Below the pieces are notes generated by a model. The model had not been told where the DNA came from and did not search any database. It was given only the letters and a program-made list of their open reading frames with translations. A stretch of DNA of 31,618 nucleotides from a virus. The DNA lies in IMG/VR virus record IMGVR_UViG_3300029953_000115, positions 1 through 31,618 of that record; one strand, 5' to 3'. This document shows, in pieces, positions 5,137-31,618 of this stretch (position 1 is its first letter; the number at the start of each line of letters is the position of its first letter). The translations under genes were made by a program, and so were the position numbers.

Positions 5137-5859
5137 CTATTGGCGCGGAGTAGAAATGCCAAACTCTCGAGCCACACGGAACATTGCTATGGCTGCGTTG
5201 TATTCGGCAAGAAAGCGGGGATTGTCTGCGTGTTCCTGACTGACCCTGGCCACAAAATCCTCCAGGGATCCACCCTGGTAATCGTTCCAGCAGCCGCACA
5301 CCACGCGATCCTCGTCGATCCAGTAGGTGGTGGTCGCGCGCCGGCTGCCGATGGGGCCAATCTGGAGGACATTGATTCCGTCGGCACCGCTCAGGTTGGC
5401 ACCGCTCAGGTTGGCACGGCTCAGGTCGGCACCGCACAGGTCGGCACGGATCAGGTCGGCACGGATCAGGTAGGCACCGTTCAGGTTGGCACCGCTCAGG
5501 TCAGCACCGCACAGGTCGGCGCCGCACAGGTCGGCACCGCTCAGGTTGGCACCGTTCAGGTAGGCACGGTTCAGGTAGGCACGGTTCAGGTTGGCACGGT
5601 TCAGGTCGGCACCGCTCAGGTCGGCACCGCGCAGGTCGGCACCGCTCAGGTTGGCACGGCTCAGGTCGGCGCCGCGCAGGTGGGCACCGTTCAGGTAGGC
5701 ACCGTTCAGGTAGGCACGGTTCAGGTTGGCACGGTTCAGGTAGGCACCGCTCAGGTCGGCACCGCTCAGGTTGGCACGGACGCCGCCATTGGCATCAGCC
5801 AGCCACAGGGCATGCAGGCGGATGACCTCTTTCAGTTCGTCGGGGCTGTAGGTCTTCAT
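5137..5859 (-). CDS. Pentapeptide-repeat protein A (26 repeats), 240 aa
   Basis: After a 28-residue N-terminal helix (MKTYSPDELKEVIRLH) come 26 uninterrupted A(D/N/Y)L(S/N/R/C/I)(G/R) repeats at residues 29-158, the hallmark of the pentapeptide right-handed beta-helix. The C-terminal 80 residues form a separate domain (INVLQIGPIGSRRATTTY, then GCWNDYQGGSLEDF), also seen as a tail on other phage pentapeptide proteins. Some relatives (Qnr, MfpA) mimic DNA and bind gyrase, but most have no known function. The start at ATG 5859 has CAGGAG upstream; an in-frame extension to 5937 overlaps a micro-gene and is unlikely. A paralogue lies at 6443-7252. Confidence 0.85.
   Translation of the reverse strand: MKTYSPDELKEVIRLHALWLADANGGVRANLSGADLSGAYLNRANLNRAYLNGAYLNGAHLRGADLSRANLSGADLRGADLSGADLNRANLNRAYLNRAYLNGANLSGADLCGADLCGADLSGANLNGAYLIRADLIRADLCGADLSRANLSGANLSGADGINVLQIGPIGSRRATTTYWIDEDRVVCGCWNDYQGGSLEDFVARVSQEHADNPRFLAEYNAAIAMFRVAREFGISTPRQ
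5386..5775 (-). repeat. Tandem 15-bp repeats encoding the pentapeptide helix of protein A
   Basis: There are 26 imperfect 15-bp units. On the plus strand each reads approximately CAGGTNGGCACCGCT. The units differ by only a few bases, so slippage or recombination between copies is likely. Confidence 0.9.
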
Positions 5860-5875
5860 GGTGGATCTCCTGGGG

Positions 5876-5971
5876 TCAAAACCCCATGTAATTGGGGATG
5901 GGTGAATTAGCGATGATGCCCCATGCGATGGCGGCACCTACGATGATCAGGATGATTCGGTGCCGGTCCAT
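5876..5971 (-). CDS. 31-aa hydrophobic micro-protein
   Basis: The ATG overlaps the stop of the previous gene in a TAATG arrangement, a typical coupling signal. The product is MDRHR followed by IILIIVGAAIAWGIIANSPI, one clear transmembrane helix with a basic N-terminus. It ends 16 bases before the start of the pentapeptide-repeat gene. No family is known. Confidence 0.55.
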   Translation of the reverse strand: MDRHRIILIIVGAAIAWGIIANSPIPNYMGF

Positions 5972-6255: not shown

Positions 6256-6446
6256 AGTTCCCTCAGCCTGGTAATCCCATTGTTCGGATCAATATATAGT
6301 TCCGGGATCACGTTTTCCGGAACCTCGATGTAGCCCTCTGGAGAACCAGTTTCGGACTCCCATACTTCGTCCTCACTGGCGTTCCGGATGTATTCGCCTA
6401 CCTCCGTCAAGAGGTGGCCGTGGTCTACATAGACGCGCATGGTCAC
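6252..6446 (-). CDS. Acidic hypothetical protein, 64 aa
   Basis: The product is small and acidic (VGEYIRNASEDEVWESETG, then YIEVPENVIPELYIDP). The start is GTG 6446, overlapping the pentapeptide-repeat stop as GTGA; ATG 6440 is an alternative two codons in. Acidic phage early proteins are sometimes DNA mimics or inhibitors, but nothing here proves that. Confidence 0.5.
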   Translation of the reverse strand: MTMRVYVDHGHLLTEVGEYIRNASEDEVWESETGSPEGYIEVPENVIPELYIDPNNGITRLREL

Positions 6447-7252
6447 AAGTTGTATGCCTCAGCCTCTTCCTTAGTCAGGAAGAAATTGATGCCATGGGAA
6501 CATGTATCCCACCTGTTGTCGTCCCAGGAATCAGCCGTGACGCGCTGGCCAGCTCGATAAATGGTTCTTGGTGTGTGGTCCGAGTAGCATTCTTCGGCTC
6601 CGATCACCTCTAGCACATTCACAAACTCGGCCCGACATTTCCGCTCTGCGCCATGGGATCGCCGGGCATCTTCCGGGACCAACAGTTTAACGATGACATC
6701 ACCACTGACGGAGTGACACTTCTTCCAGGCCCAGAACGGCCCGGTTGGCGGGATGTGCATCCTTATTGCTAGCGCGAGTTCCGCTCCCTTGGCACCGTTC
6801 AGGTCGGCACGGTTCAGGTTGGCCCCGCTCAGGTTGGCACCGATCAGGTTGGCGTCGCGCAGGTTGGCACCGCTCAGGTAGGCACCGTTCAGGTCGGCAC
6901 GGCTCAGGTAGGCACCGTTCAGGTAGGCCCGGCTCAGGTCGGCACCGTTCAGGTAGGCGTCGCGCAGGTTGGCACCGCTCAGGTAGGCCCCGCTCAGGTC
7001 GGCCCAGCTCAGGTTGGCCCCGCTCAGGTTGGCCCCGATCAGGTAGGCGTCGCGCAGTTCGGCCCGGCTCAGGTCGGCCCCGCTCAGGTAGGCACCGCGC
7101 AGGTTGGCCCCGCTCAGGTCGGCCCGGCTCAGGTTGGCACCGCTCAGGTCGGCACCGCGCAGGTCGGCACGGACGCCGCCATCAGCATCGGCCAGCCACA
7201 GGGCATGCAGGCGGATAACCTCTTTCAGTTCGTCGGGGCTGTAGGTCTTCAT
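6443..7252 (-). CDS. Pentapeptide-repeat protein B (25 repeats), 269 aa
   Basis: This is a paralogue of protein A. The first 22 residues are identical to protein A, followed by 25 A(D/N/Y/E)L.(G/R/D) repeats at residues 29-153. The C-terminal domain is different and longer (IRMHIPPTGPFWAWKKCH, then SGDVIVKLLVPEDARRSHG), with a conserved look around CRAEFVNVLEV. This C-terminus is of a type found alone or on other phage pentapeptide proteins; its function is unknown. The start at ATG 7252 follows GGAGAACTGAA. The shared N-terminal helix with different C-terminal domains suggests a common scaffold with two effectors. Confidence 0.85.
   Translation of the reverse strand: MKTYSPDELKEVIRLHALWLADADGGVRADLRGADLSGANLSRADLSGANLRGAYLSGADLSRAELRDAYLIGANLSGANLSWADLSGAYLSGANLRDAYLNGADLSRAYLNGAYLSRADLNGAYLSGANLRDANLIGANLSGANLNRADLNGAKGAELALAIRMHIPPTGPFWAWKKCHSVSGDVIVKLLVPEDARRSHGAERKCRAEFVNVLEVIGAEECYSDHTPRTIYRAGQRVTADSWDDNRWDTCSHGINFFLTKEEAEAYNL
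6794..7168 (-). repeat. Tandem 15-bp repeats encoding the pentapeptide helix of protein B
   Basis: There are 25 imperfect 15-bp units of the same consensus as in the neighbouring paralogue, with more variants such as GCGTCGCGC. The two arrays are about 1 kb apart in the same orientation, so they could recombine and delete the genes between. Confidence 0.9.
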
Positions 7253-12334: not shown

Positions 12335-12627
12335 TGCAGGTTGTTCTAGATGCCCAATGCTGGGGGGGGGCTCTTGCTGGACTTCCCCAGTATGACGTGC
12401 GGGTGTTCCTGGCCCTAGTGTTCATGGCGAGGGGTTCCTACACTGTCGCGTTCAAGAACGAGCAACTGATATCCAAGTCTGGCGTGTGCAAGTCCCTGGT
12501 CCAAAGGGCCATCTGGGACATGAACAAGCGCGGGATGCTGAAGGTGATCCAGCGCATTGGAGGGGACTACAACCGCACCATTGTTGACTTATCTCCTGAC
12601 TGGGTAACTCTAGGGGAGAACCTATGA
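12334..12627 (+). CDS. Winged-helix protein, 97 aa
   Basis: The ATG overlaps the preceding stop. Residues 25-80 form a winged helix (VFLALVFMARGSYTVAFKN, then ISKSGVCKSLVQRAIWDMN, KRGMLKVIQRIGG), a pattern of phage replication- or transcription-type proteins with sequence RGMLKV for the wing. The role is probably DNA binding in late-early regulation; no closer identification is possible. Confidence 0.6.
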   Translation: MQVVLDAQCWGGALAGLPQYDVRVFLALVFMARGSYTVAFKNEQLISKSGVCKSLVQRAIWDMNKRGMLKVIQRIGGDYNRTIVDLSPDWVTLGENL

Positions 12628-13061
12628 CGTGTATCGCCTGGGATGGGAAGACTCTAGCTGCGGATAGGCAGGGAACCAATAATGGCCTCAAAATTTTATG
12701 CACCAAAATAAAGAGGCTCAAGGGTGGTGCCGTTGTTGCGTTCACTGGCGAACTTGAGATGGGGATTGAACTTGCCAAGTGGTGGGAAGATGGGGCAGAC
12801 CCTGAGAAATGGCCGTCATACCAAGCGACAGACGATTGGACCCGAATGATCATTGCCCAGGATGGTCATGTTTCCGTCTACGAGAAGCGTCCCATCCCCC
12901 AACCCGTGGAAGATCCATTTGCAGCATGGGGATCTGGACGCGACTTCGCTATCGGGGCCCTTGCCATGGGAGCAGACGCTCGAACGGCGGTCGGAATTGC
13001 TAGCAGATTCAACACTGGCAGTGGGATGGGGATTGATTCGTTTGAGGTAGGCAATGGGTAA
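12624..13061 (+). CDS. Ntn-hydrolase, proteasome beta/HslV-like peptidase, 145 aa
   Basis: The protein begins MTCIAWDGKTLAADRQGT; once Met is removed, Thr2 would be the N-terminal nucleophile, as in HslV. The conserved Asp (AADRQG, residue 14) and a Lys in CTKIKRLK (28 or 30) match the positions of the proteasome-fold catalytic Asp and Lys. The AFTGELEMGIELAKWWEDG block and the GSGRDFAIGALAMGADA helix are typical of the family. At 145 residues it is a little shorter than HslV (about 175). Phage relatives are annotated as proteasome-like proteins and their role is uncertain. Its start (ATGA) is coupled to the preceding gene and its stop overlaps terminase small subunit. Confidence 0.7.
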   Translation: MTCIAWDGKTLAADRQGTNNGLKILCTKIKRLKGGAVVAFTGELEMGIELAKWWEDGADPEKWPSYQATDDWTRMIIAQDGHVSVYEKRPIPQPVEDPFAAWGSGRDFAIGALAMGADARTAVGIASRFNTGSGMGIDSFEVGNG

Positions 13062-14032: not shown

Positions 14033-14206
14033 ATGCCGCTGTATTCGAGGAAGTGTGTCCTGTGCGCAAAGACGGAAGAAGTCATCCTGCCCGTGTCCCA
14101 GATGGACACCCCGGGGGTTTGCCCCTGCTGCGGTGAGACGATGAAGCGGGTGGAGTTCCCGGGATGCTCTGTCTACATCGAGCAGGTAAAGGAACTCTGG
14201 GAGTAG
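14033..14206 (+). CDS. FmdB-type zinc-ribbon mini-protein, 57 aa
   Basis: The ATG at 14033 follows CGGAGGGG. Two CxxC pairs (KCVLCAKTEEVIL and GVCPCCGETMKRVEFPG) match the small single-strand zinc ribbon seen in FmdB-like regulatory proteins. It sits between terS and terL and ends three bases before TerL's start. The role is unknown; a similar position is common for such zinc ribbons in phage head regions. Confidence 0.65.
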   Translation: MPLYSRKCVLCAKTEEVILPVSQMDTPGVCPCCGETMKRVEFPGCSVYIEQVKELWE

Positions 14207-14208
14207 GG

Positions 14209-16182
14209 ATGCCGAAACACAACGACCTATTCGGCTTGGTCCAGGGACTCAGCGACTTTTCAACCCTGGTTGAGCAGGAAGCGGCTACGGCGTTCGTTGA
14301 CATTTGGACGAGGCGTCCACCCAACAAACCACAACTCGCCTTCTGGGAGTCGAAGCGGCACATCAAGGCCATCTCTGGGGCCAATCAGTGTCTTCGCGGA
14401 GACGCCGCCGTCCTGATGTGGTGCGGGGATGAGAAACGGATCGACTGTATCGAAGTCGGTGATGAAGTGGTGGCGTTCGACTTCACCACGGGCGAGTTTG
14501 TCCCGAGCCAAGTCAAGGCCATCTTCACCAATCCGGGTCGCATCCTGCACCGATTCAAGCACTCACAGGGCTGGCTGGAGTGCAGCCAGAAGCACAAGGT
14601 GGCCGTGCAATACCCCTCCGGCCGCATCGCCCTAGTTAGGGTCATGCGGGCCGTGAAGCACCAGCTTCCGGTGTGGGTGGACAAGGAAGGCCATGCGGAA
14701 CTGTCCGAGCTGACCTACGAGGGGAAGATTGGCTACGAGCCTACCTGGGACATCAACATCGACCACCATGACCACGCCTTCGTGTGTAATAATATTGTAG
14801 TTTCCAATAGTGGTAAAAGCTTGGCTGCGGCCGTAAACATTGCTTGGGATGCCACGGGCATCTACCCGGAGTGGTATCGGGGCCCGCGCACAGTCCGAGG
14901 CATCAACGCTTGGGTGGTCGGTGAAACTACCGAGTTGACCCGAGACTCGGCCCAGAAAAAGTTGTTTGGACCCAACATCGACAAGCCCGGGTGGACGGAC
15001 AAGCCGGGTGACGAGGCCCTGATCAACTCGAAATACATCATCGACAAGCCGACTCGTAAGTCTGTTTCCGGTGCCATTGACATGGTTCGGGTGAAGCACG
15101 TCCCGAGCGACACAACGTCCCTGATTGCCTTCAAGTCGCACGGCATGGAGACAGGGGCCCTCGCCTCCTGGACTGGTGATAGGGCGTGGATCGATGAGGA
15201 ATGCCCGTTGGAGATCCTGGACGAGATCCAGGCCCGCATGTCCACCACCAACGGCTACATCTACTGCTCGTATTGCCCACAGCACGGCCGGACTCCCTTC
15301 GTGAAATCCATGGAGGAAGAAGGCCCGGACGTGTTCCTAGCCTACATGACCTATGATGACATCAACCACATCTCAGAAGAGGTGAAGGCCCGCAATATCC
15401 GCCGCTGGTCACATGATCCGGCGATGCTTGCAGCCAGAACCCAGGGCCATGCAACCTCGAATTCTGGTCTTATCTTCCCGTTCCCTACCAAGGACATCCT
15501 TTACGACCCCGCCTTGATCTCCATTGGCAAGCGGTGGAAGTTCCTGGGGGGTATGGATGTTGGCTGGACCCATCCTACGGCCGCCGTAGGGCTCGCTCTA
15601 GACCCCATGGCCGATGTTGTCTACTGCTATGTGGACTACGAGCAGGACCGCCGGCCCCCGGTTTACCACTACGGCGAGCTGGACCGCTGGGGACGGTCGA
15701 TGACATTCATGATCGACCCTGCTTCGGACCAGGTGGCCCAGAAAGATGGAGAAAAGATCCTTGAAGAGTATTGGACTCTTGCACATGGGTCTGGATATGA
15801 AAATATTGACGAAGATAAACGCAAGTTTATCAAAGCAGACAACTCGTTTTTGACTGGTATGGGGAATCTGTGGCACAGATTCAGCACTAATCGCCTATTT
15901 ATTAGCAAGAATTTGAAAAAGTTGATAGACCAATACGCGAATTACGAGTGGAACAAGAAGGGCGATGGCCCAATGGAAGAAACTCCGAGCCGGAAATATG
16001 ATATCATCACGAGTTTGCGCTATGGAGTTGGTGGTATTAACCAGTATTCTCATATTCTGAACGACTTCCCCCCTTGGATGACGGCTGAATCGTTCGAGGA
16101 ACCGATTGAGATCAAGGAGTGGTCGAAATTCCGTGCTGGTGGATCCCCACCGATCACTGACCAGTTCGGTCACACCTACTGA
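14209..16182 (+). CDS. terL: Terminase large subunit precursor with a mini-intein in the Walker A motif
   Basis: TerL is the packaging motor ATPase and nuclease. The precursor is 657 residues, 517 after intein removal. The Walker A is split: SGANQ at residues 56-60, intein 61-200, then SGKS at 201-204; joined it reads SGANQSGKS. The Walker B is AWIDEE (326-331). The C-terminal RNase-H-type nuclease has Asp 450 (GGMDVGWTHP), Asp 503 (FMIDPAS) and Asp 598 (KYDIITSLRYG). The start at ATG 14209 fits the natural N-terminus (MPKHNDLFGLVQG); the ORF is open to 14164, but that extension overlaps the zinc-ribbon gene. Active packaging requires splicing, because the ATP-binding loop is interrupted. Confidence 0.85.
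   Translation: MPKHNDLFGLVQGLSDFSTLVEQEAATAFVDIWTRRPPNKPQLAFWESKRHIKAISGANQCLRGDAAVLMWCGDEKRIDCIEVGDEVVAFDFTTGEFVPSQVKAIFTNPGRILHRFKHSQGWLECSQKHKVAVQYPSGRIALVRVMRAVKHQLPVWVDKEGHAELSELTYEGKIGYEPTWDINIDHHDHAFVCNNIVVSNSGKSLAAAVNIAWDATGIYPEWYRGPRTVRGINAWVVGETTELTRDSAQKKLFGPNIDKPGWTDKPGDEALINSKYIIDKPTRKSVSGAIDMVRVKHVPSDTTSLIAFKSHGMETGALASWTGDRAWIDEECPLEILDEIQARMSTTNGYIYCSYCPQHGRTPFVKSMEEEGPDVFLAYMTYDDINHISEEVKARNIRRWSHDPAMLAARTQGHATSNSGLIFPFPTKDILYDPALISIGKRWKFLGGMDVGWTHPTAAVGLALDPMADVVYCYVDYEQDRRPPVYHYGELDRWGRSMTFMIDPASDQVAQKDGEKILEEYWTLAHGSGYENIDEDKRKFIKADNSFLTGMGNLWHRFSTNRLFISKNLKKLIDQYANYEWNKKGDGPMEETPSRKYDIITSLRYGVGGINQYSHILNDFPPWMTAESFEEPIEIKEWSKFRAGGSPPITDQFGHTY
14389..14808 (+). other. Mini-intein (140 aa) inserted in TerL Walker A
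   Basis: The intein begins at Cys61 with CLRGDAAVLMW (block A) and ends IVVSN before Ser201 (+1 Ser). Block B is present as ECSQKHKVAV (Ser in place of the usual Thr, His conserved at intein position 69). The C-terminal block reads TWDINIDHHDHAFV, then CNNIVVSN. The penultimate residue is Ser instead of the usual His, with terminal Asn present. No homing-endonuclease domain (LAGLIDADG or HNH) is present, so it is a splicing-only mini-intein. This is a well-known insertion site type for phage terminase inteins. Confidence 0.85.
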
Positions 16183-16790: not shown

Positions 16791-19157
16791 ATGATGAGCC
16801 CTGGGAGAGTGGCTGTGGCTTATCCATCGGGTGTGGGATTGGGGTCAATGGCTGCGGCAAGGATGCCGAGCGCCCCGCAGGGCGGCGGGCTCATGTCCCT
16901 TCAGCCTCCCATGTCTGGCCCGAACAGCGCCCCGCCCGACGACAAGCCGATTGGAGAAGTGGCGCACGACAACCTGGACGAGGTTGAAGGCGCTAGCAAG
17001 CTCATCGGCCAGTTCGAGAACGAGATTCAGCTTTCCGATGACGCCCGCCGGGACAAAGAGTGGGCGTGGTGCAAGATCGAAAAGTATCTGCACGGCAAGG
17101 ATGTGAATGAGCCCCGCGAGGGCTACGAAGAGTCCACATTCTTCTACCGGCGTCTTCCTCGCATCGTCCAGATTGGACGTGCCAAGCTCTACAAGCAGGT
17201 CTGCCCCCTCCAGGGCCGTCCTTGGGAGATCAAGCCGAGCCCCCGACGCCGGACCCAGATGGACCCGAAGGAAGAAGAACGGCGCGTGTCTCGTCTGCGG
17301 GAAGAATTCGAGGACATTCACGAAGCCATGGAGTTGGAAAACTGCATGGACGAGATGTGTACCCAACTTTCCTCGCTAGGCAGTTCCGTGGTGATTGGAC
17401 CGACCCAGCTCCGCCAGCCAGCGCTCCGGTGGAATGATGGCGACGAGGAGATCGACAAGGAAGACGTGCGCAAGCCGATGTGGGAGTTCATCGACCCGAA
17501 GCGGGTCTACCCGGACCCCAACACCCGGTTCCAACAGGGCCTGGAATACGTCCATGTCCACCACGTCATGTCTGCCCACCAGATCCGGAGTCTTCAGGAC
17601 GATCCGACCTTCATCAACAGCGAACTGGCCGACCTGATCATCGACATGCCGGACGGCAACTGGGCCGGTAACCTCCGGAGATGGGAAATCTTCCCGTTCC
17701 CGACGAACATCAGCAATGCGATGCTGAATCGCTACATCGTGTGGCGGCGCATTGGTGTCCTGAACTGCCAGGCGATGGAAGACCTGGGCGAAGACATCCA
17801 GTCCCACATTAAAGAACTGGAGATCACCAACGACGAAGGTGTCGTCATTGGGCATCGGGACTTCAAGGGCCTCGACAAGGCCCAGAAGAACGCTCTGATA
17901 GACGGTATTTGGGAAATCTGGTGGTGCGGGAACCATATTCTGAAGGTGTCCAAGCGCAAGTTCCAGCCCAAACGGATGTACGTCCACTTCATTCCGTTCC
18001 GGGTTGACCCGGGCAGCATCTTTGGCGTCGGGGCCGGTGAGTCTGGCCTTGAAGTCTGCGAGATGCTGATCAACATCTGCCGTTCGATTGACGATGCTTT
18101 GGCCGATACCTCTGGGTTCCAGGCGATGATCGACGCAGGGGCCATCGAGAATAAGGACCTGACCATCCGTGGCCGCAAGACGTGGCTCTGGCGGGACAAG
18201 GGCGTGGGCAAGAAAATTGGGGCTACCGGGAAGCCGATTGAACTGTTCACCGTCCCGTCCAACCTGGACAAGCTTCTGGAGTGCGCCAAGTATTTTGAGT
18301 CTCTGATCCCGGTGGTGACCGGCTTTACCGAGAATGCGGATGGCAAGGCGCTTGGATCCGGTGTCCGCACGGACGATATGCTGGAACGGATCTGGGAGTC
18401 CCTGGAAGAATTCATCAAGGACGTGGTGGGGAATGTGGACCGTTATTGGTGGAAGCCGCACCTCCGGGACTGCTACCACTGGATCAAGACATACTACGAG
18501 AACAAGGACGAGTTCATGGTCGAAGCCGACCTTCAGGTCCAGGGCGTCAAGGGCGCTCTGCGGCGCGAGATTGTCGGCCGGAAGGCCAAGGAACTATTCA
18601 AGGATCTGCACCAATACGGTCTTCCCAAGTGGATGGATGAAGTGGAGTTCCTAAAGGCCATCTCCGAAGGGATGGGCCTGGACCAGGAACTTGCCGTCAA
18701 GACGGTGGACCAGTATGTGGAGGCCATGAAACTTGAACTTCAGCAGAAGATACTGAACGATGCACCGGCCAACGCTCAAAAGGACAAGGAGCGGGCCCAT
18801 GCTTCTGCTTTGGACACCATGGCTGAGATTTTCAAGGCCGGCATGACACAGGGTAAGGACGGTCTGCCGCCCCCCATCGTCATCCCTGCGGCCGAGCAGA
18901 TGTTCAAGCTCACCGGGAAGATGGACGAGAAGACCATCGCGGCATTCGCTGTCTGGTCCACGATGCTATCCCAGCAATACCTTGCGGCGGCATCGGCTAC
19001 GGCCGAGCAGGCCAAGGTTCTGAGCAGCCCCGTTCCGATTGATGGGCCGAACGAGTTGACCCCCGCCGCCAAACAGGCCCAGCAGCAGGCCCAGCAGCCA
19101 CCACAAGGCGTTCCGCAACCTCAGCCTGCCCAACCACCCCAGGGGATGCAGTCATGA
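16791..19157 (+). CDS. Portal protein
   Basis: The portal ring is the head vertex through which DNA enters, and binds terminase and the tail. The 788-residue protein has an N-terminal low-complexity region, a large alpha/beta core (WEFIDPKRVYPDPNTRF, VHHVMSAHQIRSLQ, FIPFRVDPGSIFGVGAGES), the channel-helix region (LEVCEMLINICRSIDDAL, then IPVVTGFTENADGK) and a C-terminal domain, ending in a Q/P/A-rich tail (QQQAQQPPQGVPQPQPAQPP). The position after TerL supports this call. The start is uncertain: ATG 16791 has no clear Shine-Dalgarno and ATG 16848, 16863 or 16893 are alternatives. The length suits the portal family of short-tailed phages. Confidence 0.75.
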   Translation: MMSPGRVAVAYPSGVGLGSMAAARMPSAPQGGGLMSLQPPMSGPNSAPPDDKPIGEVAHDNLDEVEGASKLIGQFENEIQLSDDARRDKEWAWCKIEKYLHGKDVNEPREGYEESTFFYRRLPRIVQIGRAKLYKQVCPLQGRPWEIKPSPRRRTQMDPKEEERRVSRLREEFEDIHEAMELENCMDEMCTQLSSLGSSVVIGPTQLRQPALRWNDGDEEIDKEDVRKPMWEFIDPKRVYPDPNTRFQQGLEYVHVHHVMSAHQIRSLQDDPTFINSELADLIIDMPDGNWAGNLRRWEIFPFPTNISNAMLNRYIVWRRIGVLNCQAMEDLGEDIQSHIKELEITNDEGVVIGHRDFKGLDKAQKNALIDGIWEIWWCGNHILKVSKRKFQPKRMYVHFIPFRVDPGSIFGVGAGESGLEVCEMLINICRSIDDALADTSGFQAMIDAGAIENKDLTIRGRKTWLWRDKGVGKKIGATGKPIELFTVPSNLDKLLECAKYFESLIPVVTGFTENADGKALGSGVRTDDMLERIWESLEEFIKDVVGNVDRYWWKPHLRDCYHWIKTYYENKDEFMVEADLQVQGVKGALRREIVGRKAKELFKDLHQYGLPKWMDEVEFLKAISEGMGLDQELAVKTVDQYVEAMKLELQQKILNDAPANAQKDKERAHASALDTMAEIFKAGMTQGKDGLPPPIVIPAAEQMFKLTGKMDEKTIAAFAVWSTMLSQQYLAAASATAEQAKVLSSPVPIDGPNELTPAAKQAQQQAQQPPQGVPQPQPAQPPQGMQS

Positions 19158-20804: not shown

Positions 20805-21770
20805 ATGGCTATTACCCGTGTTGTCCCTACCCAGAACACCGGCATTCCTGCCGCCTCCCAGGCGCTCCTCATTGAGGAGATCGTCGAAGGTCTGACCATG
20901 GACGTGATGCGCCGGGAATCGTATCTCGGCAAGATCGCCAACACTGAAGCTCTGAAGAAGCTCGAACAGTTCGGTGATCAGATCACCTTCCGCGTGCTGA
21001 ACCCTCCTCCGATCCAGCCGTACTACGCCAATATGGACCTGGTTCCGACCGTCACCACCGGGACCAACTTCACGGTCCAGGTCAACAACGCCTTCTACGC
21101 CTACCCCACCCTGGACATCGTGGACATCAAGGAAATCAACCTCCCGCTGATGTCCCAGATCGCCCGGATGATGGCCGACGCGATGGCCGAGAACGAATAC
21201 CTGGTGGTTGTGGCTGGCCTCATCACCACGGTCTACGGCGCCCCCACGATGGTCTATGAGGGCCAGGTCCCGGGCACCGTTGCCTACAACCCGGCTGTGC
21301 CGACCTACGTGTCCAGCACTGATCGGACCGACCCGGACTACATCATCAATCAGTTCCTCGCCGCCCGGAAGGCTTACAACCAGATGGGTATCCCCCGCAA
21401 GGGCCGGTATGCGATGGTCAACTCGGACGTGGAGCAGATCCTGCTCCAGAGCGACCAGTTCACCTACCAGATCAACGGCGAGCGCAACGCCAAGATGATC
21501 GAGGACGGCGACTTCTCCATGCGCGTGGCCGGGTTCGACATTATCGTCACCGATGCCATCCCCACCGCGACCTACGGTGGCGTCTCCAATATCTGCCAGG
21601 GCGTCCTTGGCCATGTGAATGGTCTCGGCTTCGTCCGCCAGATCATGGAAACGGACATCAACTTCAAGATGCAGACCAAGGCCGGGCGTGCTTGCCGGAC
21701 CTTCGATGTGTTCGGCTACGGGCTGTCCGATAGCCGTTACATGGGCGCCTTCCCCCTGAAGGTTGCCTAG
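20805..21770 (+). CDS. Major capsid protein, HK97-type fold likely
   Basis: The 321-residue protein has the features of a shell subunit: an N-terminal arm (MAITRVVPTQNTGIPAASQ), EIVEGLTMDVMRRES, an extended beta region (NAFYAYPTLDIVDIKEIN), a long helix (MSQIARMMADAMAENEYLVV), a domain with DYIINQFLAARKAYNQMGIP and RYAMVNSDVEQILLQS, and the C-terminal core strand with FDIIVTDAIPTATYGG. The spine-helix and P-domain layout and its position after the scaffold indicate an HK97-like capsid protein. The start is ATG 20805, Shine-Dalgarno in the preceding palindrome. There is no N-terminal propeptide of the HK97 size, in line with a separate scaffold. Confidence 0.8.
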   Translation: MAITRVVPTQNTGIPAASQALLIEEIVEGLTMDVMRRESYLGKIANTEALKKLEQFGDQITFRVLNPPPIQPYYANMDLVPTVTTGTNFTVQVNNAFYAYPTLDIVDIKEINLPLMSQIARMMADAMAENEYLVVVAGLITTVYGAPTMVYEGQVPGTVAYNPAVPTYVSSTDRTDPDYIINQFLAARKAYNQMGIPRKGRYAMVNSDVEQILLQSDQFTYQINGERNAKMIEDGDFSMRVAGFDIIVTDAIPTATYGGVSNICQGVLGHVNGLGFVRQIMETDINFKMQTKAGRACRTFDVFGYGLSDSRYMGAFPLKVA

Positions 21771-22272: not shown

Positions 22273-22935
22273 ATGACCCAGTATGCCTACATCCGTGACC
22301 GGATCGAGCCGTTCCGCGACGACCTCAAACCTCGTGTGGCGCAACTCTCGTATCAGGTCGCGTGTAGGCAGGTGGCTCTGGAAACCCTCGCTCTACGAGA
22401 ATTTGTCGAGTTCACGATTCCGGCGGGGACTATCTCCCAACCGATCTACGACCCTACTTACGAGAGAGAGGCAATCTACATCTTTAGGGCGAAAATCAGC
22501 GGCCATCGGCATGACCTCCCGCTCTACAACCAAGACGCGCTGGAGGATCTTTACCACAATATAACCCCTTTCGAGGGGACGATTGCAGCCTATACCACTG
22601 ACCAGGGCCAGTTCTGGCCCAATCGCCCACCCGCATCAGACACCCAGGTCATCGCAGACGTTGCCTATAAACCAATCGGCGACTTCGATGAAGTCGGATT
22701 CGGGCCTGAATTCGAGGATGCCATTGTTCACGGTGCCCTCGCCCATTACCTCGCCCTGCCGGGCTCCGGACAAGACAAGTCCGAGGCCCGGCGGCTTGAG
22801 ACACAGTTCATTACCGAGTGCAGTTCGCTCCGTGGTGCTAATCTGGTTGGAGACGCAGGCTACAAACGCGCCTCTACTGCCCCAAGGCGGCACTATTTCG
22901 GTCAGGGTTTCCACTCCAACATGCTGAGGTATTAG
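22273..22935 (+). CDS. Head-tail adaptor-like protein, 220 aa
   Basis: The pattern is that of podovirus head-tail adaptor (gp6/tail-tube A-like) proteins: an N-terminal helical part (YIRDRIEPFRDDLKPRVAQL), a beta-rich middle (VEFTIPAGTISQPIYDPTY) and a C-terminal helical block with FEDAIVHGALAHYLALPGSG and KSEARRLETQFITECSSLRG. This last element, with the GALAxxLALPG signature, is typical of adaptor proteins below the portal. The exact family requires a profile search. Confidence 0.6.
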   Translation: MTQYAYIRDRIEPFRDDLKPRVAQLSYQVACRQVALETLALREFVEFTIPAGTISQPIYDPTYEREAIYIFRAKISGHRHDLPLYNQDALEDLYHNITPFEGTIAAYTTDQGQFWPNRPPASDTQVIADVAYKPIGDFDEVGFGPEFEDAIVHGALAHYLALPGSGQDKSEARRLETQFITECSSLRGANLVGDAGYKRASTAPRRHYFGQGFHSNMLRY

Positions 22936-24219
22936 ATGGCAAAGGGCCGGTCCATCCTGGTGGTTTCCCACTTTGGCGGGGTCGGAGAATTGTGCAAACG
23001 GTTCCTTGGCGAAGGGAACCGAGTCCGCTATTACATCAAGGACAAGCCCAGCCAGGACATCAACGATGGCCTGATCCAGAAGGTGAAGCACTGGGAACCC
23101 TATGTGGCGGAATCGGACCTGATAGTTTTCGACGACACGAATTTCGGCAAGGTGGCCGATGAACTGCGGTCCCAAGGCAAGGCGGTCGTCGGGCCCTGCC
23201 CCTACTCCGACAAACTGGAGATGGACCGTGGTTTCGGTTCCGAAGAGATGAAGAAGGCGGGGATGACGGTCATTCCGGACTGGAACTTCACCTCGTTCGA
23301 TGAGGCCATTGCCTTCGTGAAGCAGAACCCGGGGCGCTACGTGGCGAAGCCAAGCGGCAAGGCCCAGGATGAGAAGGCCCTGACCTATGTGGGCAAAGCC
23401 GATGATGGGTCTGATGTGCTTGCCATCCTGGAGAACTACAAAAAGAAGTGGGGCAAAAAGATCCACGAGATTCAGCTTCAGCAGTTCGTGAAGGGCGTGG
23501 AAATCGCGGTGACTGGATTCTTCAACGGAGAGAAGTTCATCCAGCCCATTTGGCTCAATTCTGAGTACAAGAAGTTCCTAAACGGTGATCTTGGCCCAAA
23601 TTGTGGAGAAAGCGGAACAACTTCATCGTGGGTTCGAGGTGGTCGTCTCTATGAGGAAACCCTGGCCAAGATGGAAGATCCTCTCCGGGCGGCGGGCTAT
23701 CATGGCCCGTTTGATGTCAACCTGATCGTTACTAAGGAGGCGGCCTATCCTTTGGAATTTACTCCGAGGCCCGGTTTTCCATCTATTTGGATTCAGATGG
23801 AAAGCATCAAGTCCAACCTGGGTGATTTCTTCGATGCGCTCGGGAACGGGAACAAGTTCAACCTCCAGGTGGAATCCGGTTTTCAGATGTGCGTGGTCTG
23901 CACCGTGGCCCCATATCCGTTTGAGGACCCCGAAGGGTTTAAGAAGTATGCCGAAGGGCGGAAACTGGAATTCAAAGATCCGACCCTCAGTGGCATCTAC
24001 CTCTCGGATGTGAAGCTGGTCGGTAACGAATGGGTCCTGGCCGGGAACAGTGGGTATGCTGTGATCTGCGTCGGGCTTGGGCAGACTATGGAGGAAGCCA
24101 AGGAGAACGTCTACGAACGGGTCAAGTCCGTGAGTATCCCGGACATGGCCTATCGGACTGACATCGGACATCATTGGAACAACGACCGCGACAAACTCCA
24201 GGCGTGGGGCTGGCTGTGA
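22936..24219 (+). CDS. PurD-like ATP-grasp ligase (GAR synthetase homologue), 427 aa
   Basis: PurD (phosphoribosylamine-glycine ligase) joins glycine to phosphoribosylamine using ATP. This protein has the full three-domain layout and length of PurD (about 429 in E. coli): a Rossmann-like N domain (GGVGELCKRF, residues 14-23), ATP-grasp (VAKPSGKAQDEKAL, 136-149; E189 in FVKGVEIAV), a substrate loop DLGPNCGESG (218-227, PurD DTGPNTGGMG), the metal-site strand LEFTPRPGF (273-281) and a C domain ending in GLGQTMEEAKENVYE. Differences: the GREHA phosphate-binding motif of PurD is replaced by GGVGEL, and the metal-ligand Asn of EFN is Thr276. The substrate may therefore differ. It lies inside the head-tail gene cluster, with GAGGT before its ATG. 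Confidence 0.75.
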   Translation: MAKGRSILVVSHFGGVGELCKRFLGEGNRVRYYIKDKPSQDINDGLIQKVKHWEPYVAESDLIVFDDTNFGKVADELRSQGKAVVGPCPYSDKLEMDRGFGSEEMKKAGMTVIPDWNFTSFDEAIAFVKQNPGRYVAKPSGKAQDEKALTYVGKADDGSDVLAILENYKKKWGKKIHEIQLQQFVKGVEIAVTGFFNGEKFIQPIWLNSEYKKFLNGDLGPNCGESGTTSSWVRGGRLYEETLAKMEDPLRAAGYHGPFDVNLIVTKEAAYPLEFTPRPGFPSIWIQMESIKSNLGDFFDALGNGNKFNLQVESGFQMCVVCTVAPYPFEDPEGFKKYAEGRKLEFKDPTLSGIYLSDVKLVGNEWVLAGNSGYAVICVGLGQTMEEAKENVYERVKSVSIPDMAYRTDIGHHWNNDRDKLQAWGWL

Positions 24220-24752
24220 ACCTCTCTGACCTGACCGCCGAAGTGCGGGACCTGATTGGCTACGGGGCCTACGACCGACTGTTCTCTCAGGACATGACGA
24301 CCGACGCCATCAACTTCGCCTGTGGGCAGGTAGCGGAGCTGCTGGGCGTGACCCGGGTCGATGCGATGCTGGTTGTGACCAGCAACAAGGCCACACTGCC
24401 TACCAGCACCAACCGGGTGATCGGGGTCCAGATCGGAACCGTTTCTACCTTGCCGGCCGGATCGTTCACTGCTGTCTGGGATGTTCCGGCTGAGGAAGGG
24501 TTCCTGAACCTACCTCTGCTGTGGGAGGTTGACGTGCTGCCCCTTGGCGGGCCTACCCCAGTGACCTACGCATGGACGATGACGCCATCCGGGAGTGGAT
24601 CGGTATCGTTCTCGCCTTCAAACGGGGAAGTTGTATCGGTGTCTGCTGCTAGCCTGAGTGCTGGGGAATATCTGAATGTGACGTGCGTAGTTACGGTCCC
24701 TGGGCAATCCACGCAAACCCTATCGCAAGTCGTCCAATACGTGGAGGCATAG
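24216..24752 (+). CDS. Adaptor N-terminal half fused to an Ig-like domain, 178 aa, GTG start
   Basis: The GTG at 24216 overlaps the PurD-like stop (GTGA). Residues 1-75 (NLSDLTAEVRDLIGYGAYDR, then MTTDAINFACGQVAELLGVTR) match the N-terminal half of phage head-tail adaptors (DLxxxVRDLIxd...INeAqxxi). Residues 100-178 are an Ig-like/PKD beta sandwich (PVTYAWTMTPSGSGSVSFSP, then GEYLNVTCVVTVPGQST). The adaptor C-terminal half is encoded in the next gene, so this looks like a split adaptor with an Ig domain at the break. Confidence 0.55.
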   Translation: MNLSDLTAEVRDLIGYGAYDRLFSQDMTTDAINFACGQVAELLGVTRVDAMLVVTSNKATLPTSTNRVIGVQIGTVSTLPAGSFTAVWDVPAEEGFLNLPLLWEVDVLPLGGPTPVTYAWTMTPSGSGSVSFSPSNGEVVSVSAASLSAGEYLNVTCVVTVPGQSTQTLSQVVQYVEA

Positions 24753-25130
24753 ATGGGCAAGGTGCTTTGGGAAAGCGAGATCATGACCGAGGACCAGAAG
24801 AACCCAAACTGGCGGGCAAGAACCGGTGAGCCTACCGTTTGGATCCAGTCGGATGGGCAGACGATTCTGCTGAACGGTCAGCCTTCCACGGGGTATGTCT
24901 TGGTGGGTTATATCCAGGAACCCACTGCCATGGTGAATCCGACCGATGCCCCTGACCCTCGGATCAAAACCTACCTACATCAGTATCTCAAGTTCGCAGC
25001 GGCGTCCTGGCTCCTGAAACAGTCCGGGCAGGGCCAGAACCTCAAGAAGTCCAGCGAGTATTACGCTGCTTTCGTGGCCGGTATCGGCATGGGGCCGATG
25101 GGGCAAGCCAGCAAGACAGTCAAGGGGTAG
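24753..25130 (+). CDS. Adaptor C-terminal half, 125 aa
   Basis: The ATG follows the previous TAG directly and has GTGGAGGC six bases upstream. The sequence reads GEPTVWIQSDGQTILLNGQP, STGYVLVGYIQEPTAMVN and ends with a helix KTYLHQYLKFAAASWLLKQS and KKSSEYYAAFVAGIGM. This matches the C-terminal half of adaptors (Y...p..d..i......l..yala.aYl...d). It complements the preceding gene, which has the missing N-terminal half. Confidence 0.55.
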   Translation: MGKVLWESEIMTEDQKNPNWRARTGEPTVWIQSDGQTILLNGQPSTGYVLVGYIQEPTAMVNPTDAPDPRIKTYLHQYLKFAAASWLLKQSGQGQNLKKSSEYYAAFVAGIGMGPMGQASKTVKG

Positions 25131-25132
25131 AG

Positions 25133-26026
25133 ATGAATCTGGCGCAGATCCGACAGAAGACGCTCGAACTGCTCGGAGACGCGGCCGAGGGGTCTTCTAC
25201 GTTTGCGCCGAGTGGCGACTACACCAAACTGGATGCCGCGATCCAGTGGGCCCAGGAGCAGGCGGCTTCCACTCTGGGGTCTACTTTCTATTTCGAGTCA
25301 GCACTTCCCGTGGTCGCCCAGGCCCCACCAACGGGGATGCCGACGACCCCGGGAGCGTTCGGGGGGGTGGCAATACCTTCTGATTGCATTGAGTTGGTCA
25401 GGGTCGCGGTAGGAAAGACTACAATTACAGCGAGCCTTATCATGCCCATGCTTTTTGTCGATGGGATTGGAGGCATAGTTGTTCTCCTCAGCCCTTACAA
25501 CGCTTCCGACACTGGGGTATGGTCAAGCCCTGATTCAACGGCTACTTTCCTATCAACCAGCGGGACATGGGCGCTTGTTGACTCACCGAACGCTGGTGGG
25601 ACCAACGCAACAGTTAGGCTTACCGTCACATCTGGGACTTATATTGGGAATATTTATACGGCATCCGCTCCGTGCTGGAATGTCGAGAATGATTTCTCCA
25701 TGGAGTTTTCTGACACCAATCCCACTCCTGGGGAAACGGGGATCACTGTCACCGGCGAGAATTGTGGTTACCCAGGCGGGACTCTCAATGGAACGGAACC
25801 TGAATTCATGACATGGAGTGTATCTTCTAATTGCACAATAACGGATGGGCAAAATACAGATGTTTTGACTATTTCCGTCAATGAGGATGTCCTTCCAGGA
25901 GACACAATAAGTGTGGATCTGCTTTACAAAATATTCGTGCCTGACCCTGAGAACCCAGGAGGGAACTGGACTGTTTACATTGCGTCTACTTGGTCAGCCC
26001 CTACCGGGTCCATTTTTGTAACTTAG
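25133..26026 (+). CDS. Adaptor N-terminal-type protein with Ig-like domain(s), 297 aa
   Basis: The N-terminus (MNLAQIRQKTLELLGDAAEG, then YTKLDAAIQWAQEQAASTLG) is again like the N-terminal half of an adaptor and like the gene at 24216, and is followed by AIPSDCIELVRVAVG. The remainder is beta-rich and Ig-like (DFSMEFSDTNPTPGETGITV, then FMTWSVSSNCTITDG). There is no adaptor C-terminal helix after it. It may be a second copy of a split adaptor that gained Ig domains for surface exposure. The start has AGGGGTAGAG upstream. Confidence 0.5.
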   Translation: MNLAQIRQKTLELLGDAAEGSSTFAPSGDYTKLDAAIQWAQEQAASTLGSTFYFESALPVVAQAPPTGMPTTPGAFGGVAIPSDCIELVRVAVGKTTITASLIMPMLFVDGIGGIVVLLSPYNASDTGVWSSPDSTATFLSTSGTWALVDSPNAGGTNATVRLTVTSGTYIGNIYTASAPCWNVENDFSMEFSDTNPTPGETGITVTGENCGYPGGTLNGTEPEFMTWSVSSNCTITDGQNTDVLTISVNEDVLPGDTISVDLLYKIFVPDPENPGGNWTVYIASTWSAPTGSIFVT

Positions 26027-30858: not shown

Positions 30859-31618
30859 ATGGCTGATTCGCATATCCCGTTTCCTGTTCCACCCGACAAC
30901 TCGGTCGAGTCTCTGCGCATCGCATTCCAACAGCTTGCGCAAAGTACAGAGAAACACGTGGGGACGGTTACCTCAACAGTCACGTCTAGTGGGGGCGTGG
31001 GTTCGGCAGCAGGGTCAGCCGGTTCTGCCGGGGTGCAGGGGGCCAAGGGCACTGCTGCTACCATTGAGATAGGGACCGTAACGACAGGACTCCCTGGAAC
31101 GTCTGCTGTGGTAAGCAATTCTGGGACGGACTACGCCGCAATATTCGACTTCACCATTCCCCAGGGAGACACTGGGGCGACCGGGGCGACAGGCGATACT
31201 GGTCCTACGGGAGCCACTGGGCCACAGGGGATTACGGGTCCGCAGGGCCCAACCGGGCCTTCGGGCGGTGGCGGTGGGACGACTGGCCCTACTGGGCCAA
31301 CCGGCCCTCAAGGCCCAACAGGTCCGCAGGGGCCAACAGGTCCTGTTGGTTCGACTGGTCCCCAAGGGCCAACTGGAGCAACTGGTCTAACCGGTGCCAC
31401 AGGTCCGCAAGGTCCCATCGGCCTTACGGGACCAGCTGGCCCTGCTGGGACTACCGGACCCACAGGGTTAACTGGGGCAACAGGACCACAGGGGACGACT
31501 GGCCCTACTGGGCCAACCGGCCCTCAAGGCCCAACAGGTCCGCAGGGGCCAACAGGTCCTGTTGGTTCGACTGGTCCCCAAGGGCCAACTGGAGCAACTG
31601 GTCTAACCGGTGCCACAG
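30859..31618 (+). CDS. Collagen-like tail fibre (partial, runs off the right edge)
   Basis: The ATG at 30859 follows the previous TAA by three bases. The N-terminus ([20 protein letters not shown]) and a [20 protein letters not shown] segment precede a putative globular domain ([34 protein letters not shown]), the common collagen-fibre head, followed by a long Gly-X-Y collagen-like region ([20 protein letters not shown]). The reading frame is open at the window end, so the C-terminus is unknown. It is a side fibre or adhesin-like protein with a triple-helical shaft. Confidence 0.75.
31276..31402 (+). repeat. 127-bp segment repeated exactly at 31492-31618
   Basis: The 127 bases from 31276 recur exactly from 31492 to the window edge, an offset of 216 bp (72 codons), so the duplication preserves the Gly-X-Y frame. 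The real repeat may be longer, because the window ends inside the second copy. Confidence 0.9.

Follow-up and report, generated by a model that had tools for sequence, protein, structure and literature searches.

PurD and its described relatives

The closest described system is GAR synthetase, or PurD (EC 6.3.4.13; TIGR00877, PF01071, PF02843), a three-domain ATP-grasp enzyme. The substrate and ATP contacts of the Aquifex enzyme include Glu100, Lys103, Lys143, Glu185, Asp212, Lys214, Arg287, and Glu292, and those with glycine are made by Asp212, Arg287, and Glu292 (PMC8880213). Brown and colleagues, 2011, concluded that two haloarchaeal 'extra' PurD-like proteins, Hlac_1553 and rrnAC0307, are not GAR synthetases; in the portion of their account that deals with these proteins, they are described as having neither GARS_N nor Mg-binding sites and as missing the Asp of GDPE (PMC3261824). 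In viruses, metagenome surveys have reported purD/GART as purine auxiliary metabolic genes (AMGs) (PMC11097641, PMC12043954, PMC11360552). Phages are also known to carry another kind of ATP-grasp ligase, the R2K/RimK-type peptide ligases, for which a protein-modifying role has been proposed (PMC7824862). A literature search for a phage PurD-like ligase of known function found none.

The protein considered here is encoded within a 31,618-nucleotide stretch of viral DNA, analysed at its full length (the window). This protein, the ligase, belongs to a large, uncharacterised family, separate from PurD, that several lineages of tailed phages carry and that has a patchy presence in archaea and bacteria. 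To our knowledge, R2K/RimK-type ligases have no GARS_C domain; being carried by phages and belonging to the ATP-grasp enzymes is what they have in common with the ligase.

The gene and its setting

The ligase gene (22936..24219, plus strand) begins with ATG and encodes a PurD-like ATP-grasp protein of 427 aa, an assignment made from Pfam, NCBIfam, an AlphaFold2 model, and column tallies. Alignments and column tallies place an N-terminal, pre-ATP-grasp domain at 22940..23235; Pfam, column tallies, and sites mapped from Aquifex PurD place the ATP-grasp domain at 23236..23880 (both sets of limits are approximate). A GARS_C-like C-terminal domain with a conserved YRTDIG (residues 318-412; PF02843, 8.8e-10) follows at 23887..24171.

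All of the surrounding virion genes discussed here are on the same, plus strand. The stop codon of the upstream gene, which encodes a virion structural protein (22273..22935; phrog_437), directly abuts the ligase start in the junction TAGATG, and the ligase stop overlaps the GTG start of the next gene, at 24216, in the sequence GTGA. That next gene encodes an SU10-adaptor-like protein (24216..24752; PF24175, a match below the cut-off at E 3.8e-4), and is followed by a structural protein (24753..25130; phrog_399) and a second SU10-adaptor-like protein (25133..26026; PF24175, E 1.2e-3, likewise below the cut-off). Farther upstream are a major head protein (20805..21770; phrog_267, 5.1e-25) and a head-tail adaptor or connector (16791..19157; phrog_332, 5.3e-10). 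A sequence-only reading of the window had held that the gene is packed among virion genes and co-translated with them, and the TAGATG and GTGA junctions bear this out as probable translational coupling.

A second record, G016, matches the window at 99.98-99.99% identity along ~31.5 kb and, continuing beyond it, reaches 57 kb. Among the matches listed from Pfam and PHROG scans of 50 of its ORFs (25 of 87 families in the case of PHROG), the functions are structural, tail, lysis, exonuclease, and methyltransferase, and none is that of a purine enzyme.

Other features of the window were also seen. The large terminase (14164-16182, plus strand) carries a small intein-like insert at residues ~76-215 (~14389-14808; Hint match, E 7e-5), positioned in the Walker A motif (...GANQ / CLRGD...VVSN / SGKS...). 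Beside the small terminase region, 12624-13061 (plus strand) is probably the match to the HslV-family peptidase (phrog_1040). Two similar pentapeptide-repeat proteins (5137-5937 and 6443-7252, both on the minus strand, ~83% nucleotide identity) are apparently the result of a duplication, and a tail protein with collagen-like GPTGPTG repeats (30859-31618, plus strand) runs off the end of the window into sequence that continues in G016.

Fold and relation to PurD

Both GARS_A (3.8e-10) and GARS_C are matched by the ligase above the Pfam gathering scores, and GARS_N was not detected in the same scan. Against the NCBIfam purD model the ligase scores 106 bits (E 2e-30), far from the equivalog cut-off of 288 bits; its cellular relatives, at 97-110 bits, likewise fall far under this value. 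No PHROGs family matching the ligase was found. The AlphaFold2 model (mean pLDDT 92.9) has the three-domain PurD fold: PurDs make up the top 13 fold matches by VIA (Z 31.5-34.1, the best being 34.1 over 390 residues), the next matches are to PurK/PurT (Z ~23.8), and PurDs are the nearest solved structures by sequence profile as well (6e-43). A BFVD search returned no close viral structure, the best matches having a TM of 0.44. The proposal that the gene encodes a divergent, full-length PurD homologue is thereby upheld, and a profile search, the check that had been suggested for it, does not place the ligase with bona fide PurD.

The ligase gene is under purifying selection; dN/dS is ~0.07 relative to L004, a 92%-identical relative (dN 0.056, dS 0.81), and ~0.19 relative to L005. 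In addition, LAGLIDADG inteins interrupt relatives at two conserved points of the active site, after N222 in L012, L013, L092, and L093 and after T276 in L006. (The intein-bearing loci are L006:7660-10011, L012:2835-4616, L013:9992-12241, L092 from 3024, and L093 from 4346.) Inteins usually occupy conserved sites of important proteins. Together, the purifying selection and the inteins at two active-site points suggest that the ligase is a working enzyme. Conservation, dN/dS, and the AlphaFold2 model also rule out a chance or spurious ORF.

Active-site residues and the family signature

Residues were tallied in homologues at 149 viral and 80 cellular loci (50 and 68, respectively, after dereplication at 85%), and true PurDs encoded by those cellular genomes served as the comparison set. 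E95, R98, K138, Q182, G187, E210, K212, G220, G224, G227, G257, D260, E274, T276, R278, and G280 are invariant in all of these loci, and D66 is nearly so. The ATP-grasp residues comprise K138, Q182, E189, E210, K212, G220-G227, D260, E274, T276, and R278, together with E95 and R98 just before the domain. When the Aquifex contacts are aligned to the ligase, Glu100 corresponds to E95, Lys103 to R98, Lys143 to K138, Glu185 to Q182, Asp212 to E210, Lys214 to K212, Arg287 to R278, and Glu292 to S283, so that the ATP site is largely retained. The phosphate-binding Lys and acidic metal ligands of an ATP-grasp enzyme are present as K138, E95, E274, and D260, each of them invariant. In the sequence-only reading the ATP-grasp core was said to be kept, and K138, E95, and E274 are indeed found at every one of the 149 viral and 80 cellular loci; the motifs that it cited (VAKPSGK, E189, DLGPNCGESG, and E274, with GGVGEL substituting for GREHA and T276 for Asn) are all present as described.

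The substrate side is another matter. Residues 14-19 of the ligase are GGVGEL where PurD has its GREHA phosphate loop, and REHA is absent from the ligase family but present in 9/9 true PurDs that could be aligned there. Asp66-Asp67 replaces the Pro-Glu pair of PurD, Phe281 stands where GDPE has its Asp, and Thr276, found in 229/229 loci, lies in a motif that reads EFTPRPGFPS in the ligase rather than EFN-x-R-x-GDPE. True PurDs of the same cellular genomes keep GREHA, Pro-Glu, and GDPE at the corresponding places, and where the ligase family has R98, Q182, E210, D260, and T276 they have K, E, D, Y, and N. The column of Glu292, which is S283 in the ligase, holds L, T, A, S, and other residues in other members of the family. 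A changed substrate side, as had been suggested, is thus seen both where PurD binds PRA and where it binds glycine (GREHA and Glu292 are gone, and Asp212 has become Glu). Because these substitutions are constant in the 149 viral as well as the 80 cellular loci, they are not the oddity of one genome.

In sum, PurD and the ligase have in common the three-domain fold (VIA Z ~34), the Lys, Glu, and Arg of the ATP-grasp core, and a GARS_C domain with R-x-D-I-G; they are set apart by the equivalog score, the GGREHA loop, the glycine contacts, and the EFN-x-R-x-GDPE motif, with Thr instead of Asn at the metal site, a gained Asp260, and, among the substrate/ATP contacts, Glu for Asp and Gln for Glu. 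Having Thr at the metal site might make catalysis less efficient, a loss that Asp260 may offset; this Asp aligns with a Tyr of PurD, at what we take to be the position of an acidic metal ligand in D-Ala-D-Ala ligase and biotin carboxylase. The signature may loosen beyond the tallied set, since a more distant copy on a Roseomonas plasmid keeps EFT and has an Asn aligned at Asp260.

In its lack of GARS_N and its replacement of the GDPE Asp (by Phe281), the ligase resembles the haloarchaeal 'extra' proteins as these are described in the relevant portion of the earlier account, and a Halarchaeum homologue, with the motif EFTPRFGYP, shares the loss of this Asp with them (PMC3261824). The ligase family would be a variant of that kind, PurD-like proteins judged not to be GAR synthetases having been noted in haloarchaea in 2011; viral members and a clade-wide signature, both seen in the ligase family, do not figure in that portion of the account.

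Distribution in phages and cells

Relatives of the ligase number at least 579 confirmed of 599 candidates among viral contigs and at least 541 confirmed in genome collections; the cellular loci examined are the best 80 of these at least 541, and the signature was checked in part of the relatives. Only one annotated phage record has a clear member, MW202796 (L001; 34% identity), a complete public record in which the homologue, at 42140-43471, was left unannotated. The 80 best cellular relatives are ~44-51% identical to the window protein and come from DPANN archaea, Nitrososphaerota, CPR, Acidobacteria, Planctomycetes, Alphaproteobacteria, and others. Plasmid copies occur in three records, including one from Halarchaeum. 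The cellular distribution is patchy (17/97 genomes of one archaeal phylum, 1/200 Pseudomonadota), and identity to a Parvularcula protein is 46-73% across domains of life. In the phylogenetic tree the clade of the window groups with a cellular clade (support 0.999) and other phage clades fall outside; the deep nodes are weak (support 0.11-0.36), and the tree leaves the direction of virus-cell transfer unassigned.

Cellular copies have housekeeping neighbours. No constant partner gene was found among 83 neighbours, the only repeats being SET-domain and methyltransferase families with 2 each, and matches to a defence library near the cellular copies are scattered, with no more than 2 members each. 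The only hint of a recurrent cellular neighbour is a SET-domain protein, which lies within ~1 kb of the ligase homologue in 5/80 cellular loci and adjoins the Sphingomonas plasmid copy; because the profile that detected it had been seeded with the near copies, it is a lead only. (Loci with the SET-domain protein beside or within ~1 kb of the ligase are L184, L201, L215, L226, and L234, as well as L253:9256-9675.) In Roseomonas haemaphysalidis (L254:6586-10395), the homologue has a type III polyketide synthase cluster on one side and an aminotransferase on the other.

Candidate functions

The protein has the PurD fold and retains the ATP-grasp core, and PurD-specific substrate residues have been lost throughout the family. 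The most likely reading, with a probability of roughly 0.7, is that it is a functional ATP-grasp carboxylate-amine ligase, from a family derived from PurD but distinct from GAR synthetase. By homology, such an enzyme would phosphorylate a carboxylate with ATP and then pass the acyl group to an amine. The acceptor is probably other than 5-phosphoribosylamine, since the phosphate loop is replaced, and the donor is probably not a glycine bound as in PurD, since Glu292 is lost and Asp212 has become Glu. In phages, expression of the ligase would be late, in one operon with genes for head-tail or ejection proteins. As neither phage nor cellular copies have a consistent partner gene, the enzyme would work by itself and not within a dedicated pathway, and its substrate would be one that is widely available; candidates are a common amine metabolite and, on a conserved protein, a lysine or the N-terminus.

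What might such a ligase make? One tentative answer is a small-molecule conjugate, in which, for example, an amino acid is joined to a polyamine or amino sugar, to protect or reprogram the cell, the gene being self-contained and moving between phages and cells. The patchy distribution, the plasmid copies, the identity to the Parvularcula protein across domains of life, and the lack of a conserved partner gene are consistent with this possibility, and acidic residues (D18, D66, and D67) are found at the ligase's equivalent of the phosphate-loop side of PurD. The argument from an acidic acceptor pocket is weakened, however, by a basic residue that is also conserved in the family, at position 49 (K/R49).

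It seems less likely that the ligase serves virion maturation by adding an amino acid to one of the structural or ejected proteins whose genes adjoin its own. In the phage lineages that were examined the gene belongs to the late structural module, and its position, taken by itself, makes a virion-protein target possible: an upstream gene could be called in 49 dereplicated phage loci and is on the same strand as the ligase in 46 of them, the commonest spacing to it is a 4-nt overlap, which suggests coupled translation, and in MW202796 a GNAT is encoded in the same gene cluster. Yet the adjoining virion protein varies by lineage. In phages of the window's type the ligase is beside the phrog_437 adaptor, in those of the MW202796 type it follows large ejection-type proteins (which gave no informative family in Pfam or PHROG), and in those of the L056 type it is near the major head protein, which argues against a constant virion target. 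(In a related lineage, the protein encoded directly upstream, L119:4068-9947, is 1960 aa long and has only PHROG matches of unknown function.) Moreover, phages place metabolic genes among their late genes too. The phage-specific role implied by the sequence-only reading is weakened as well, since the closest relatives outside the window's own group are archaeal and bacterial chromosomal genes beside housekeeping genes.

The ligase is probably not a GAR synthetase, and the purine-gene label is probably wrong, because the substrate-binding residues of PurD are consistently replaced in the family. A divergent GAR synthetase, acting as an AMG that raises purine synthesis for phage DNA replication, would account for the fold, the conserved C domain, and the ATP-binding residues, and viral purD/GART genes have been listed as AMGs of this sort (PMC11097641, PMC12043954, PMC11360552), but this explanation is improbable given the replaced residues, the score far under the equivalog cut-off, and the earlier judgement, in the portion of the 2011 account on the 'extra' haloarchaeal proteins, that these are not GAR synthetases (PMC3261824). 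Genome content points the same way. True PurD above the cut-off accompanies the paralogue in 9/15 cellular genomes; of the 6/15 that have the paralogue without PurD, 5 are also without PurC (these may be incomplete MAGs), and one, G006, has PurC, so that a PurD-like role of the paralogue may be possible there. AIRS-family matches, found in 13/15 of these genomes, could be PurM/PurL or relatives of HypE/SelD/ThiL. Neither PurM/L nor PurC was found in 24 related phage records (which may be fragments), and a search for other purine genes, proposed with the view that this is not plain purine synthesis, thus agrees with that view, as do the 106 versus 288 bits and the family-wide replacement of substrate residues. 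Plain PurD is ruled out by the equivalog cut-off, the motifs, and genome content.

Hypermodification of a nucleotide or DNA base is equally improbable, although the sequence-only reading had offered nucleotide modification as an example beside that of a virion protein: the acceptor of PurD is itself a nucleotide precursor and the phage encodes a D12-type adenine methyltransferase, but the phosphate-binding loop is lost, no DNA-modification partner recurs, and thymidine hypermodification gains nothing from the 24 related phage records (possibly fragments), in which no thymidylate-synthase family gene was found.

Significance

Cellular members of the family are named by annotation pipelines 'phosphoribosylglycinamide synthetase C domain-containing protein' and given a purine GO term. 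Because pipelines name them after PurD, the purD/GART AMGs of viral surveys may include members of the ligase family; those surveys assign purine synthesis, whereas the family is without the residues for it. The signature EFTxR plus Asp260, with neither GREHA nor GDPE, provides a simple way to tell the family from true PurD. If the family is not a GAR synthetase, then part of the claimed viral boost to purine synthesis may be misannotation, and what is present instead would be a common late phage enzyme. It is a doubtful but conceivable outcome that this widespread, so far unrecognised enzyme joins amino acids or other carboxylates to a virion, ejected, or conserved host protein late in infection; if so, it would represent a new ATP-driven modification of virion or host proteins, shared by phages with archaeal and bacterial cells and hidden under the name of PurD.
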